Assembly (NCBI RefSeq): GCF_019649055.1
Contig: NW_026570279.1
Coordinates: 124,001-188,000, forward strand
DNA length: 64,000 bases
Direction of reading: 5' to 3'
Source of the DNA: Paramacrobiotus metropolitanus
Taxonomy: Eukaryota; Tardigrada; Eutardigrada; Parachela; Macrobiotidae
Shown here piece by piece: positions 27,279 to 61,970 of the stretch. The notes beneath the pieces are model-generated. The model ran no database searches. It saw nothing but the letters and a program-made list of their open reading frames with translations, and was not told where the DNA came from. Each line of letters opens with the position of its first letter. Position 1 is the stretch's first letter. The translations under genes and the position numbers were made by a program.

Positions 27279-27996
27279 TATTAATTTTAACAATTCTCAG
27301 CCTGCGACTCGATGAATAATTTCCACTTATACCACTAGGAGCGCTTGCATGCATTATACTTCTCTTGTTTAACCGTTGAGTAAGCATCTTGGAAGCGCTG
27401 TATTCATTGGTTTGTTAGTTTCCAGGGGATCATTACGGTTGGACTCCACAGCAATGATATGTTACGTTCATGGGCACTTATATTTAGCGTTCTTTTTGTT
27501 GCTTCATGGAAATTCCAATAATAGCACTTCTTAACCACCAAATGGTTCTTACCGACATTACCGTTATTTACGTCTTGTTTGATTTTATTCGCTAGTGAAA
27601 GCAAAGAATCCGAAATATTTTGCAAGCGCGGTTCCGCTTCCCCGATTTGCCACGGAACCCATAACGCGCCGTCAATGCGCTTTGCAGTTCACGGAAAATT
27701 GTCGTCCGTCTAATGTGGAAGTCGTGAGAGGCTACTTGAGAGACGGTTTTCAAAACAGTCAGAGAAGTGTTTCTTCCTTTCAGTAGGTCAATAGTATGCA
27801 CGCTCCAGTTTTATGTGTATGTTTCGTCCCACACAGACACAGATATCTATCCAGAGGGCGCTGGTGTACTGGATCTTTACACAAAAGACAATTGCACCTT
27901 CACTCACGGTATGCAACTGCACTGCAGCGCCCAAGCTACATCCCATGAAATCCAACAACTAGCCGGGTCCTTATCGCAGCGACCGCTGAGGGCGGT

Positions 27997-28293
27997 CTCG
28001 GAGAAGCGTCTACGCTGTACAGAGAAATGACAACGGGAACAACATCTCCTCGAAATAATCGCTTTTATTTCAAAGAAATAAATGCTAATCAGCATCAAAA
28101 CAAATCTCTAAAGGTGAGAAAAAGGGCATGAAAACCAAGGAAAGCTAGGAAACGATGTTAACGGTTCCGATGCTGGCACCCGAATGGCAAAACATGCTTC
28201 AGCATGTGCGCAGAATGGCAAAATGGTGAGCCGATCCAATGATGGTGAGGCGTATGTGCCACTATCCTGTGCTATATGCACAGCACTCTGACA
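27997..28293 (-). repeat. 3' LTR of the retroelement
   Basis: Left-hand copy of the long terminal repeat, 297 bp, nearly identical to the right-hand copy. It is the 3' LTR because the element reads on the minus strand. Near-identity indicates a recent insertion. Confidence 0.9.
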
Positions 28294-30630: not shown

Positions 30631-31385
30631 TGCGTTTCAATGTATCGCTGCTTTGCAGTCTGCAACTAGTCTTGGCCTGGGCGGCTATAAATAGCCTGCT
30701 CGGCTATCTCCTATTGTTTCGCTTTGCGATTTGCTGCCACTGATAAAATCAGCTAGTTCGTCAGCACTAGCACCACAAGGAAACTCTTGCCAGAACGATC
30801 GTCCTGTTAAATGTCGTCTGCATTTCTTCAAATTAATAACTTATCAATTCGGAACAATCGTTCCACTACAAAAGAATATCGTCTAGATAGACGGTTTGAA
30901 TTTCTGTCACGATTATTTTGACGGTTTTACCGTCGACCACAATAACCAAAACGTTCTTCATTTCAGTACCAGATCACAAACAACTTCCTCCTCAGACAAC
31001 TCTAATATGTTAGAGACAATCGTCTCGATATCTTCCTTAAACCCGTAAAAGGAAAATTAAAATAAGTCAGGGAAATAATCCCACTTCGGTATTATCTGCT
31101 AGGAATTAATCCCGTAGAGTATGCGCAACAACCACTGGTTTATTGCCTACCACTGTTTGTACGCAATCCGCGGTTCTTCTCCGTGCTGGCGGCCGCGTGC
31201 CTTCCGAACCAGCGACGCTCCTTGCTTCTGTACGGGTTCTTCTGCTGCTGGTTGTTGTGGGCTATCGCTGGTGACCCGGGGTCTCCACTGAAGAAGAGGA
31301 AACTTCCGTGTTACAGCGTTTGTGAGTGAACGCTGTTGAGTGCAAACTAGAGGGAATGACGAGGATCTTAAGGCATCTCCACCAT

Positions 31386-31683
31386 CTCGGAGAAGCGTCT
31401 ACGCTGTACAGAGAAATGACAACGGGAACAACATCTCCTCGAAATAATCGCTTTTATTTCAAAGAAATAAATGCTAATCAGCATCAAAAACAAATCTCTA
31501 AAGGTGAGAAAAAGGGCATGAAAACCAAGGAAAGCTAGGAAACGATGTTAACGGTTCCGATGCTGGCACCCGAATGGCAAAACATGCTTCAGCATGTGCG
31601 CAGAATGGCAAAATGGTGAGCCGATCCAATGATGGTGAGGCGTATGTGCCACTATCCTGTGCTATATGCACAGCACTCTGACA
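31386..31683 (-). repeat. 5' LTR of the retroelement
   Basis: Right-hand copy of the long terminal repeat, 298 bp. On the minus strand it starts TGTCAGAG and is followed directly by the putative primer-binding site. It is adjoined on the plus-strand right by the GCGGT target duplication and the resumed LRR exon. Confidence 0.9.
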
Positions 31684-54756: not shown

Positions 54757-56627
54757 GTGCCTATGCTAAAGTTGTCACCAATCATTCCACCATGGGAATG
54801 CAGAAGACACAACGCTCGATCATACACAACCCTCGCTTCTATAGACTTTACTATGGCCGCGGAAAAAATGTTGGTTAGAAAGTCTGTGCGTTTATTCCAC
54901 ACACCGATGGCGAAATTAACTAGTTCCAGACTCAACTTCGGCGAATACGATATGGTTCCCAGATTTTATATAAGATGGATGCACTCTTGTGGTTTGCATC
55001 TGCCTTCACTGGCGGCATCCGACTCAGATACAAATGTCAGCATGCATTTCAAATGTATTCAATTATCCTGGGCATTATCTGTGTTATTTTTTCTCTTGAT
55101 GCTGTTTTTCATGGATCAATACGATTTCTTCGTCAAATTCGGGCAGCTCCTCACAGACATGGAATATTTCACTTGTGTCGCGTATTATTTTCGTTCACTG
55201 ATTAAAGGTCAAGGCCCATTTACTATTGCGGCTATGTTTTTAGTACAGAAAAAAATATTTAAGTTTGTAAAAGATTGTCAGAAATTTCTGCCTTCAGTTC
55301 TCCTCGAACAGGACTGGAAAATTATACGCAGAGTAATTCTTGGATTATGTGCTTGCACGATCACATCCGTTATTTTCTGCTTGCTTGGGATCGTGCTCAC
55401 AACGCTCGCTCTGCAGGAATCCGGCTATTTGAACCAGGAAAAGAACGTACCGTATTTCTTCGACTTATGCAAGATACCGGGAATTTTGATTAGCGTGATC
55501 AATAGTCTTGGTATTTACTTGGGAACATCGTGCGAATATTTATCGCTAACGCTTCTCGTCATCTTGACGTTGCATTTACTTATGGCCTTCCGACGTGTTG
55601 CTGCTGATTTGCATGTAGCACTGCTGAATCAAGAGGGTGTTCCGGTCGTTCGGCTACACTTTCGTAAATATTTGACGCTGGTTAATCTGGTGGATCAATT
55701 AGTGAGACTTTTGCGCCGCTACTGCTGATGAGCTGTATAAAAAGATATGTTCAGTTTTGCCGCTGTCTTTGGAGCATATCTGGAGATGTATACACCCAGT
55801 GTGGAGATGGCCAGTGAATACAATGCCCGTTCTATGGCATACATGCGCGGCATGGACTATTTCACTTATTTCTTCGGTAACATTGGATTCGTCAACACGA
55901 TTATCCGCATCGGCGGATTCTGCAAATTACATAATGCAGTAAGCCAATCAATTGCTTAAAAAATAACAATAAATTTGTGAATATGATTTTGAACTCAGAT
56001 TCAGCAGGAAGCGATTTGCAACATTGAAACGTTTTGAAAAATGTGAACGTTTTAACAGGTTGCAGATACATAAATGCATAAAACATAATACAAGCGTAAA
56101 CAAAGGTAACAACAAAAAATGTTATTAGGCATGGGCAACAGGACACGGCAATGGCCGTAAAACGCTTATAAGAATGATACTAGGAAGTACAGTTAAATAT
56201 CACGCTCATACAAAACTTGACAGGCTCAGTCTTTCCGAAAGCAACTACGGATGGTCCACCTGACTGATGCGGATGATGCAGTGCTCAGCGAGAGTAATTT
56301 ACTGAAGCGAGACACATCCAAACGAGACGGCGCTGTAACGGTTTACGGTCTAATGGCACTGTCAACCGACTACGTCATAGCGGTACGTCTAATAATCTAA
56401 TTTCATGTTCTCGCCGTGCCTTTTAATTGTCATACATTTTCTTGTTATAAGTCACCAGTTCTCTTTGTCTGACTGTCCTGATAAATTTTTAGTTCTTTGG
56501 GCTGGCAATCACCTACATCATTTTTGTCTACCAAGCCAAAGATTCGAGAAAAACGGTGGAGGATCTTAAAGCGTTACAGATGGCGCATCATGCTCTAACT
56601 CTGCGCATGCTAAACCAGACCGTTTAA
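54757..56627 (+). CDS. Gustatory-receptor-like seven-helix protein B, three exons; two compensating indels
   Basis: This is a tandem paralogue of gene A with the same exon plan: 54757-55938, 56224-56382 (159 bases, exactly the length of gene A exon 2) and 56493-56627. All borders are phase 0. TM7 reads TYIIFVYQ. Within exon 1 the frame is lost over about 36 bases: relative to gene A one base is missing near 55705 and one A is extra in the A-run near 55741, so the original frame is regained at MFSFAAVFG. The segment between, read in the shifted frame, still encodes the conserved FAPLLLMSCIK helix, but the true frame has TGA and TAA stops. Either this copy is a very young pseudogene or the sequence has two errors. 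No GT-AG intron removes the stops in frame. Confidence 0.7.
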
Positions 56628-57306: not shown

Positions 57307-58431
57307 ATGGCGAATAATTCCAGTGCTACAAATGCCTCGTTTTCTTCGCCTTCATGGTCCCTAGCACCGGCCAGCACTGTAATTATCACACCGTTAGCCA
57401 TTATTCTAAACGGATATGCCTTATATACATTTCTTGCGAACCGCCATCTTCACAGTCCTTTCAACGTTTACCTGGGAAGCCTATTATTCAGCAACCTAAC
57501 TTACTCCATCATCTGCAATCCGCTGGATGTTATCAGCGGCCTCTATCCAACTTGGCCACTCAGTTCCGCCGCCTGCGACGCGTACATCTACGCCCTGCTG
57601 ATCCTCGGAGCGGTGACCATCAACTCGCACGCCCTCATCACCGTCAATAGACTGTGGGCCATGACCTTTCCTGTCTCGTACCGGAATCATCACAATCTGC
57701 ACGCGGCTTTTGCCAGCGTTGCCGTTCTTTGGATATACGTCCACGTTATCTGTTTACCGGGAGCGATTCGGGACTCCCTGTACTTTCGGACACCGCTGCA
57801 CGACAATCCCTGTCTGTTGAATGTAGCAGCGCAGTTTGAATGGAATCTGGTGATGCAGTTTGTGGTGTACGATTTACCCATAGTTTTCGTTATCGTCGCA
57901 TATCCGTATTTATTATTCAAGCACAAAATGCGAAATCGTGTGAGGTTCGGGAATTCCATTCCGATGTCACGGTATGCAGCAAGATCGCGAAATGAGAATG
58001 GCTCGAGGTCCGGGGACACCGGTACGGGAGACCCGTCTTCCGTACTGAAGAAGGAGGTCAGTTCCGCCGCCTGCGACGCGTACATCTACGCCCTGCTGAT
58101 CCTCGGAGCGGTGACCATCAACTCGCACGCCCTCATCACCGTCAATAGACTGTGGGCCTGGATGAAACGCCTGGATGATCGCTACCGGGCGTTTGTTGTA
58201 ACCACGCTGTTGACTATTTCGATTTTAATCTGCTGGGTGCCCAATGTGACATTCTTTTCGGTGACCAGTTTTGTAACCGTCGACGAACCGATTTTATATG
58301 GTATCTCTTCGTTCTTGTTTAACTTGCAGTCGCTGTTCGATCCGATATTGTTCGCATTTGTTTTCAAAAATCTTAGAGACGCTCTGCTTGCACCGTTTGC
58401 TGATAATTTGGCACGTTTAGGTTTTCGGTGA
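57307..58431 (+). CDS. Rhodopsin-like GPCR 1, intronless, with duplicated TM3 segment (374 aa)
   Basis: The chain begins with Asn-rich glycosylation sites (NNSS). TM1-TM7 follow: TM1 about residues 21-45, TM2 about 56-82, TM3 about 88-112, TM4 about 135-155, TM5 about 180-205, TM6 with CWVP, TM7 with DPILFAF in place of NPxxY. The DRY motif position reads NRLWAM. After loop 3, a 101-bp stretch identical to 57560-57660 is repeated at 58058-58158, in frame (offset 498 bp). It inserts a second copy of the TM3 segment just before TM6, replacing the basic loop end present in the paralogue. If translated and inserted in the membrane, it would add a helix and could reverse the topology of TM6-TM7. 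Family is certain (class A-like); ligand unknown. Confidence 0.85.
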   Translation: MANNSSATNASFSSPSWSLAPASTVIITPLAIILNGYALYTFLANRHLHSPFNVYLGSLLFSNLTYSIICNPLDVISGLYPTWPLSSAACDAYIYALLILGAVTINSHALITVNRLWAMTFPVSYRNHHNLHAAFASVAVLWIYVHVICLPGAIRDSLYFRTPLHDNPCLLNVAAQFEWNLVMQFVVYDLPIVFVIVAYPYLLFKHKMRNRVRFGNSIPMSRYAARSRNENGSRSGDTGTGDPSSVLKKEVSSAACDAYIYALLILGAVTINSHALITVNRLWAWMKRLDDRYRAFVVTTLLTISILICWVPNVTFFSVTSFVTVDEPILYGISSFLFNLQSLFDPILFAFVFKNLRDALLAPFADNLARLGFR

Positions 58432-59644: not shown

Positions 59645-60649
59645 ATGCACAATACGGACTTATCCAATAATAATTCAAATATTTCTTTGGCTCCCGCGTG
59701 GACGTTGGGCCCAACGAGCACTGCCATTATCACACCGCTGGCTATTCTCCTCAACGGCTACGTGTTGTTCATCTTCTTCACAAACAAATCGCTGCACACT
59801 CCGTTTAACGTGTACCTCGGGAGTTTATTATTCGCCAATCTGATTTATTCCATCCTCTGCAATCCGTTGGACGTTATCAGTGGCCTTTATCAAACCTGGC
59901 CGTTGAGTCCCACCGCCTGCGATGTGTACATCTACGCGCTGATCGTCCTCGGCGCGATGACCGTTAACTCACACGCGCTAATCACTTTCAACCGTTTGTG
60001 GGCCATGACTTTTCCAGTCTCGTACCGGAATCAACATAATTTACGAATTTCCTTCCATACTGTCAGTGTTCTTTGGATTTACGTCCATTTCCTCGGTTTA
60101 CCTGGAGTAATACGGGATTCTCTGTATTTCCGAGCGCCTCTTAAAGATAACGCGTGTAGTTTAAACGTTGAACTGCAACTTGAGTGGAACATTATCATGC
60201 AGTTTATCGGGTATGATTTGCCGATATCGTCCGTGATCGCTGTTTACCCGTATTTACTGATTAAACATCGGTTCCGACGGCGGATTAAATACGATCGCTC
60301 GCTTGCCCTTTCGAAAAAAACGGCGTACCGCAACAGAAATGAGAATGTATCAGTAAACGACAAGACAACCGACAATACTGACGAAGAACGAAAGAGGGGC
60401 CGAAAAGAGCGTTACCGGGCGTTTATTGTCACCAGCTTATTGACCCTGTCCATATTGATCTGCTGGGTGCCTAATGCCACGTTTTTCTCTATTAACTGTT
60501 TCACCACCGTGGATGAGCCGATAATGTACGGGATATCATCGTTTTTGTTTAATTTACAGTCGCTTGTGGATCCGGTTTTGTTTGCGTTTGTTTTCAAAAC
60601 TTTGAGAGATGCTTTACTGGTACCATTTCAAAGGATTCGATGCTTTTAA
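59645..60649 (+). CDS. Rhodopsin-like GPCR 2, intronless (334 aa)
   Basis: Tandem paralogue of GPCR 1 with seven helices and the same diagnostic positions: glycosylatable Asn-rich N-terminus (NNNSNIS), NPLDVISG after TM2, a Cys in the following loop, FNRLWAM at the DRY site, CWVPN in TM6 and DPVLFAF in TM7. Loop 3 is basic and acidic (DEERKRGRKERYRAF) and has no inserted helix, so this copy shows the ancestral layout. The chosen ATG gives an N-terminus that aligns with GPCR 1. Plasma-membrane receptor, ligand unknown. Confidence 0.85.
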   Translation: MHNTDLSNNNSNISLAPAWTLGPTSTAIITPLAILLNGYVLFIFFTNKSLHTPFNVYLGSLLFANLIYSILCNPLDVISGLYQTWPLSPTACDVYIYALIVLGAMTVNSHALITFNRLWAMTFPVSYRNQHNLRISFHTVSVLWIYVHFLGLPGVIRDSLYFRAPLKDNACSLNVELQLEWNIIMQFIGYDLPISSVIAVYPYLLIKHRFRRRIKYDRSLALSKKTAYRNRNENVSVNDKTTDNTDEERKRGRKERYRAFIVTSLLTLSILICWVPNATFFSINCFTTVDEPIMYGISSFLFNLQSLVDPVLFAFVFKTLRDALLVPFQRIRCF

Positions 60650-61970
60650 GTAACACAACATAACCGATCTACAGTTAACTGCATACACAAAGCACATACC
60701 TGAACACAATTATCAGGACAGTATTTAAAAAGCTCATCGACGCTGTAAGCGCTCTCTTTTACTTTGTGTTAAAGTAAGTAAGACGGTACAGATGATGAAA
60801 AATTATTGTGACAAGCAATTCCTTTTGTCTCTAAATCTAGCAGTAACACAAAAATTTACGCAAAATTTATTACTCGTATTTGTCCATACACTGAAGAAAA
60901 GAAGCTAACAATGCAAATCAACAATTTATTATTTTTTTCCTTCATCCTCGAGCATCTGTTCAGTGTCTCTCCACGGTGTTTTTTAATATCCTTCGGTTGG
61001 CAGTACGTTTTGCTGAAATATCTCTGGTGGCATTTGCCGGCAGCGGTTCAAGACGGACAAAGTTGTACATGACAGTTTGCTGACCTCCAAGCTGGCAATA
61101 TGTATTCTCCCATATCCACCATTGTTCTCGGTAATTTGTCTTAGGCCGCGGATTAGGGCTCTGGTAGTAGTTCAGGATCTGGACAAGGACGTAAGCTTTT
61201 GTTTCGGCTCATCAAAACACCTTCCTACACCTAACTATTTGTACGAAAAAATGTTGTTGGCACTAGTTACGAACGCATACTGCTAGCAACCGATTCTGTG
61301 GCGAGAACCCAAGATCGCATTTAAAGCGCAAACATCCACATAAGAGCAATATAAAACCGTATTAGTTTCACCTCCTGATCAATCAAGCAGCCAATCAAGA
61401 TTTCTATGGCAAACCAGATAAAAGTTGTTTCATCTCAATCTTCCCCCAGGAAACCACTGTTATAACAATTATGTCGCTCTGACCTTCACGTACGTATTTA
61501 CGTACGATTTGTGTAAGGAGGCTGATGTAATAAAATTTTGTCATACTAGTATGACAAAATTTTATTACATCAGCCTCCTTACACAAATCGTATAGTGATC
61601 GGACGACTCGATGGAAACCGATTACTGCTTCCAATTACAAACCGCATTTAAGGAACTAAAAGAGGATTTATAACTGGGCACGAATAGGGAATATTTATTG
61701 TTTCTCATCAATGAACGTCTGCACAATGCACACTGTACCTGACAAATCTCGCTCACACGTCTGTTGTTCTTCCCAACCAATTCCGCGATCTACCGTGAAA
61801 TTTCGTCCACATCCGATTTTCTAATGGGAATAAGGTGCATCTCCAATAAATCACATAGATACCCTGCATTAACTGCTTGCGGATCAATAACGGTGTGGGG
61901 AATATCCGCTTCCACCCCAGGAACTCTCACTCCCTGTCTTGTTCGGAAGGTATCTCTTATCTTGCAGTTT
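60650..61970. other. Intergenic sequence with a large palindrome
   Basis: No supported gene. A minus-strand reading of 61960-61770 looks protein-like (no stops over about 55 codons) but has no recognised motif or clear splice borders. The palindrome at 61503-61592 is listed separately. Confidence 0.35.
61503..61592. repeat. Perfect 90-bp palindrome
   Basis: Two 45-base arms are exact reverse complements with no spacer, the centre being ACTAGT between 61547 and 61548. The arm starts TACGATTTGTGTAAGG. There is no coding or RNA-gene signal. Confidence 0.95.

Follow-up and report, generated by a model that had tools for sequence, protein, structure and literature searches.

The receptor gene and its family

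The window analysed, a stretch of 64,000 nucleotides of the Paramacrobiotus metropolitanus genome (C59:124001-188000), contains at 57307-58431 on the plus strand an intact single-exon gene for a class A GPCR (GPCR 1), which appears in the ORF list as one open frame of 374 codons. Its translation matches the Pfam profile 7tm_1 over residues 35-348 (E=1.3e-24; 87.5 bits against a cut-off of 30.5). Like the rhodopsin-class GPCRs (PF00001) in general, GPCR 1 fits the profile from TM1 to TM7 and has the TM3 cysteine, CWxP in TM6 (CWVP) and (N/D)PxxY/F in TM7, here DPILF (DPxxF). It differs from them in TM3, where NRLWA is found instead of the expected (D/E)RY, with the arginine retained. This variant is family-wide in this genome, since NR(L/I/F)(W/L)A was found in 20 of the 20 family members read; (D/E)RY is not obligatory for class A GPCRs. 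A second difference, an eighth hydrophobic segment in loop 3 that is a copy of TM3, belongs to GPCR 1 alone. The solved structures nearest to GPCR 1 are those of 5-HT1 receptors.

The neighbouring gene GPCR 2 (59645-60649, plus strand; 334 aa) is a tandem paralogue without the insertion and is 66% identical to GPCR 1. The receptor family is large, and altogether 110 candidates were scored in the genome. Class A genes with NR(L/I)WA replacing DRY are very numerous (for example C79, C16, C72 and C257); adjoining genes form clusters, and some of them are pseudogenes. In its size, clustering and pseudogenes the family is similar to the nematode Srx-type serpentine chemoreceptors (PF10328), and GPCR 1 lies above the cut-off of that profile over TM1-TM4. 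However, only the first half of GPCR 1 matches, and the class A profile fits far better. Judged from its sequence, GPCR 1 appears to be an otherwise ordinary, sensory or chemoreceptor-like member of a large rhodopsin-class family. A further open frame of 323 aa at 54757-55728 of the window has several hydrophobic stretches and the look of a membrane protein, possibly gustatory-receptor-like; a Pfam search of this frame gave no match at E<1.

A TM3 repeat within loop 3

The first-pass annotation had described 101 identical bases at an offset of 498 bp, interpreted as an in-frame duplication of TM3 into loop 3 that the paralogue lacks, and all of this was borne out. The presence of the TM3 repeat in the assembly was confirmed: copy 1 (57560-57660, plus strand) is the TM3 with the conserved cysteine and NRLWA and aligns to the TM3 of the paralogues, and copy 2 (58058-58158, plus strand) is a second TM3 segment located in the loop that joins TM5 to TM6 (loop 3). 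The direct repeat is exact over its 101 bp, and identity ends at the first base on each side. Both copies are read in the same phase of the one 374-aa frame, in which SSAACDAYIYALLILGAVTINSHALITVNRLWA occurs twice. An exact repeat of 101 bp has a chance expectation of ~10^-51, and a search of the whole 169.8-Mb genome found the 101-mer at only two places, both in GPCR 1. Internal exact-repeat searches across the other fetched GPCR loci revealed one further locus with a repeat (L006; C24:279.0-279.4 kb), near another GPCR paralogue, with an exact direct repeat at about 147 and 466 (57 repeated 40-mers, the first pair at an offset of 319).

An empty site defines the inserted unit

Contig C24 carries a second version of the GPCR 1 neighbourhood on its minus strand, at about 286.9-290.6 kb; it takes in the gene together with both flanks and is mostly 82-90% identical. 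This sister copy is a pseudogene with in-frame stops, frameshifts and a 696-bp insert. At the insertion site its flanks abut (CTGCAGAAAAAG-AAACGCCTGGATCATCGC), and GPCR 1 has 108 bp between CTGAAGAAGGAG and AAACGCCTGGATGATCGC. Since C24 keeps the empty site, we infer that the inserted unit is 108 bp or 36 codons long (58057-58164, plus strand); it is absent from the C24 sister copy, from GPCR 2 and from a third paralogue at C59:279k. The extent of the event as first annotated therefore needs revision: the exact identity does span 101 bp, but this is not a multiple of three, and the frame of TM6-TM7 is kept because the inserted total is 108 bp. From left to right the unit consists of a single G, the 101 bp copied from TM3, and TGGATG. 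Its junctions (marked by a slash) read GAAGGAGG/TCAGTT on the left and GGGCC/TGGATGAAACG on the right, and the flanks of GPCR 1 without the insert would read AAGGAG/AAACGCC.

Slightly upstream of the insertion site another 4 bp are missing from C24, which we take to be a deletion in the pseudogene, since the TM6 frame would otherwise shift. Without the insert, loop 3 of GPCR 1 has 51 residues, with 49-52 in near paralogues; with the insert it has 87 and is the longest among the 20 members compared (the others have 18-72). The 696-bp insert that splits the C24 pseudogene (L046 3326-4021) has inverted ends, TACGAGGGTTGTTAG and CTAACAACCCTCGTA, and is DNA-transposon-like.

Origin of the insertion

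Both longer pieces of the unit can be found nearby. The 101 bp are present 498 bp upstream, and GCCTGGATGA at the right junction (58156-58165, plus strand), made up of the last piece and the preceding GCC, has a second copy 13 bp downstream (58169-58178) and is read as templated filler. The chance of a random match to the 50-bp flank is 0.005 for a 7-mer and 7e-5 for a 10-mer. The right switch point shows GCC microhomology; the left junction has one unexplained G and no clear microhomology. C75 carries a gene for a Pol theta-like polymerase; among solved structures its nearest relatives are Pol theta. Templated insertions have been reported as a hallmark of polymerase theta-mediated end joining in C. 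elegans (PMC7368036). The GPCR 1 insert resembles them in its origin from the immediate neighbourhood, its short microhomology at the right switch and its more than one template piece, and differs in that its main piece, at 101 bp, is long for filler. In addition, the parent chromosome was not observed for GPCR 1 and the pathway is a reconstruction; the 108-bp in-frame insertion itself is shown by the comparison with the empty site.

The insertion is most likely a DNA-repair accident with template switching, by Pol theta-type end joining or a similar process, which accounts for the junctions more readily than a fault in assembly. After a double-strand break within the loop-3 codons, or the stalling of a fork there, repair would have proceeded by copying: one end would have primed on the TM3 of GPCR 1 itself, 498 bp upstream, and 101 bp would have been copied before a switch to the adjacent downstream flank by way of the GCC common to both. 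TGGATGA would then have been copied there and the ends rejoined, resulting in the 108-bp, 36-codon in-frame insertion. Template switching at a replication fork would leave much the same trace.

An assembly or PCR artefact had been proposed in the first-pass annotation. An artefact of assembly, polishing or library preparation, caused by chimerism of a read or wrong joining of a repeat, is in our judgement unlikely. The exact identity of the copies could point to it, as could the length of 101, which many Illumina reads share, and the presence 3.3 kb away of a unique perfect 90-bp palindrome that could be a long-read fold-back. However, the junctions would have been joined on 1-10 bp, much less than the overlaps that assemblers use, and a composite, in-frame, locally templated unit of 108 bp with filler from the adjacent flank is hard to obtain in this way. 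For the published assembly of Paramacrobiotus sp. TYO (PMC8277472), Canu was run on Nanopore reads (45x) obtained from the DNA of some 3000 animals, and Illumina reads (62x) served for polishing; if the genome analysed here is that one, reads should span the repeat region of ~600 bp. The likely long-read assembly, together with the 108-bp length of the unit and its templated filler, makes an artefact of 101-bp reads less plausible. The assembly contains no alternative allele.

Two other repeats were seen in the window. The palindrome at 61503-61592 has arms of 45 bp and no spacer, occurs nowhere else in the genome, and may be the product of a snap-back template switch or a long-read fold-back artefact. 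A direct repeat of ~298 bp at 27996-28293 and 31385-31683, identical except for a one-base shift, is spaced by 3.4 kb. It occurs at least 40 times across the genome, often in pairs several kb apart, and its copies are therefore probably the two termini of an LTR element.

Age of the insertion and selection on GPCR 1

Compared with C24 and the C59:279k paralogue, copy 1 carries four synonymous changes that are specific for GPCR 1 (57561, 57594, 57609 and 57648). Copy 2 has all four of them and no differences of its own. Since the four sites are common to both copies and none is private, the simplest reading is that copy 2 is young and was derived from GPCR 1's own TM3 after these changes had occurred. 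Of the origins suggested in the first-pass annotation, very recent duplication is the best supported. Conversion from a paralogue is disfavoured, since copy 2 contains the GPCR 1-specific sites, and the artefact is disfavoured by the in-frame 108-bp unit and its filler. By a rough figure of our own, about 10 differences would be expected over the whole GPCR 1 branch; as there are none, the event is placed in the last 30% of this branch. Copies 1 and 2 may have undergone conversion with each other afterwards, in which case the event would look younger than it is.

After GPCR 1 and C24 diverged, GPCR 1 accumulated 4/3/22 changes at codon positions 1/2/3, and C24 accumulated 21/24/27. The former pattern shows that GPCR 1 was under purifying selection for most of its branch, which says nothing of the period since the insertion. 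In simulations, ~15% of sense duplications into loop 3 kept the whole frame open. The open frame is therefore mild evidence of selective filtering, weakened by the fact that openness drew attention to the gene, and chance (about 15%) is a possible explanation. We prefer to see the insertion as a recent allele, perhaps still segregating, of a single chemoreceptor-like gene.

Consequences for the receptor

Removal of the copied segment from the mRNA, using splice sites some of which were made by the insertion (GAG/GTCAGT at the left junction, or GTATGC...AATAG), is in our view very unlikely. The insertion did create GGAG/GTCAGT at the left junction, and some GT-AG pairs, such as 57972-58148, would take out most of the copy in frame. 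However, the in-frame options depend on weak splice sites or would remove part of loop 3 or of TM6, and the close paralogues have no intron at this place. An intron from the junction donor to the nearest plausible acceptor (AATAG, 92 nt) was rejected, since it shifts the frame.

If the segment is translated, it could by our estimate be hydrophobic enough for membrane insertion. An apparent-free-energy scan with approximate parameters gave ~0.3 kcal/mol for it, which is the same value as for TM3, close to that of TM1 and more favourable than those of TM2 and TM7, and GPCR 1 has eight candidate membrane segments by this measure. A crude positive-inside count of K+R near the helices gave 12 in and 1 out for a seven-helix orientation, and 9 in and 6 out for an eight-helix orientation. 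Copy 2 has basic flanks on both sides, LKKE before it and NRLWAWMKRLDDRYR after it. An AlphaFold model calculated from the two sequences GPCR 1 and GPCR 2 (pLDDT 37, pTM 0.24) was discarded as too poor for topology.

The first-pass annotation had considered an eight-helix receptor or an inversion of TM6-TM7, and this proposal is not supported: the charges flanking the copy and around TM6-TM7 favour the seven-helix orientation. In a genuine eight-helix receptor the copied TM3 would span the membrane, TM6-TM7 and the tail would be turned over or only partly inserted, and the protein would work in a new way, which is highly unlikely. An insertion competence like that of TM3 and TM1, a frame open through TM6-TM7 and the constraint on GPCR 1 along its branch are consistent with it. 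Against these stand the basic flanks and the poorer charge balance, the ordinary motifs of TM6, TM7 and the C-terminal tail for an ordinary orientation, and an insertion too young to show measurable constraint. The more general claim that a class A receptor gained an internal eighth helix by one mutation and is still functional, whether through inverted TM6-TM7, dual topology or competition of copy 2 with TM3, is likewise one to which we give very little credence. Enzymerhodopsins and similar proteins have an extra N-terminal helix, which brings a seven-helix fold to eight predicted membrane helices; there the additional helix leaves the orientation of the core unchanged, whereas the one in GPCR 1 is internal. 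In the literature searched, nothing on point was found for natural internal helix insertions in GPCRs.

Most likely, as far as the sequence allows, the product of GPCR 1 is a seven-helix receptor, impaired or barely tolerated, whose loop 3 carries an excess hydrophobic segment. Most molecules would adopt the seven-helix orientation, and the TM3-like segment beside TM6 might lie at the membrane surface, be re-entrant or be misfolded. Folding or G-protein coupling would probably be reduced, or the segment might just be tolerated, as no other site of the fold is as permissive as loop 3. A split muscarinic M2 receptor indicates that loop 3 tolerates change, since TM1-5 and TM6-7 can assemble as separate modules, trunk and tail, when this loop is cut (PMC11093360). 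The M2 fragments differ from GPCR 1 in that they were engineered or separately translated and contain no added hydrophobic helix.

A sharper form of this explanation, a plain loss-of-function allele whose product misfolds and whose gene is on the way to a pseudogene like that on C24, is quite possible, if somewhat doubtful. Packing and topology can be disturbed by competition from a second TM3 next to TM6, and the sister copy has already decayed, with stops and an insert of ~700 bp; on the other hand, GPCR 1 has no further damage and has kept its frame, which happens by chance in about 15% of cases. Taken as a whole, a young templated repair insertion, giving a seven-helix receptor with a surplus loop-3 segment that is impaired or barely tolerated, is in our view the probable explanation of the locus.

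The donor and an empty-site sister copy are both present in one genome, and therefore a short templated insertion into coding sequence can be read here base by base. If the animals carry the insertion and produce the protein, the locus would be a natural single-step test of a seven-helix receptor with an extra internal helix, for which GPCR 2 next door would be the matched paralogue control. Should the eight-helix reading be true, membrane-topology evolution would have been caught in progress.
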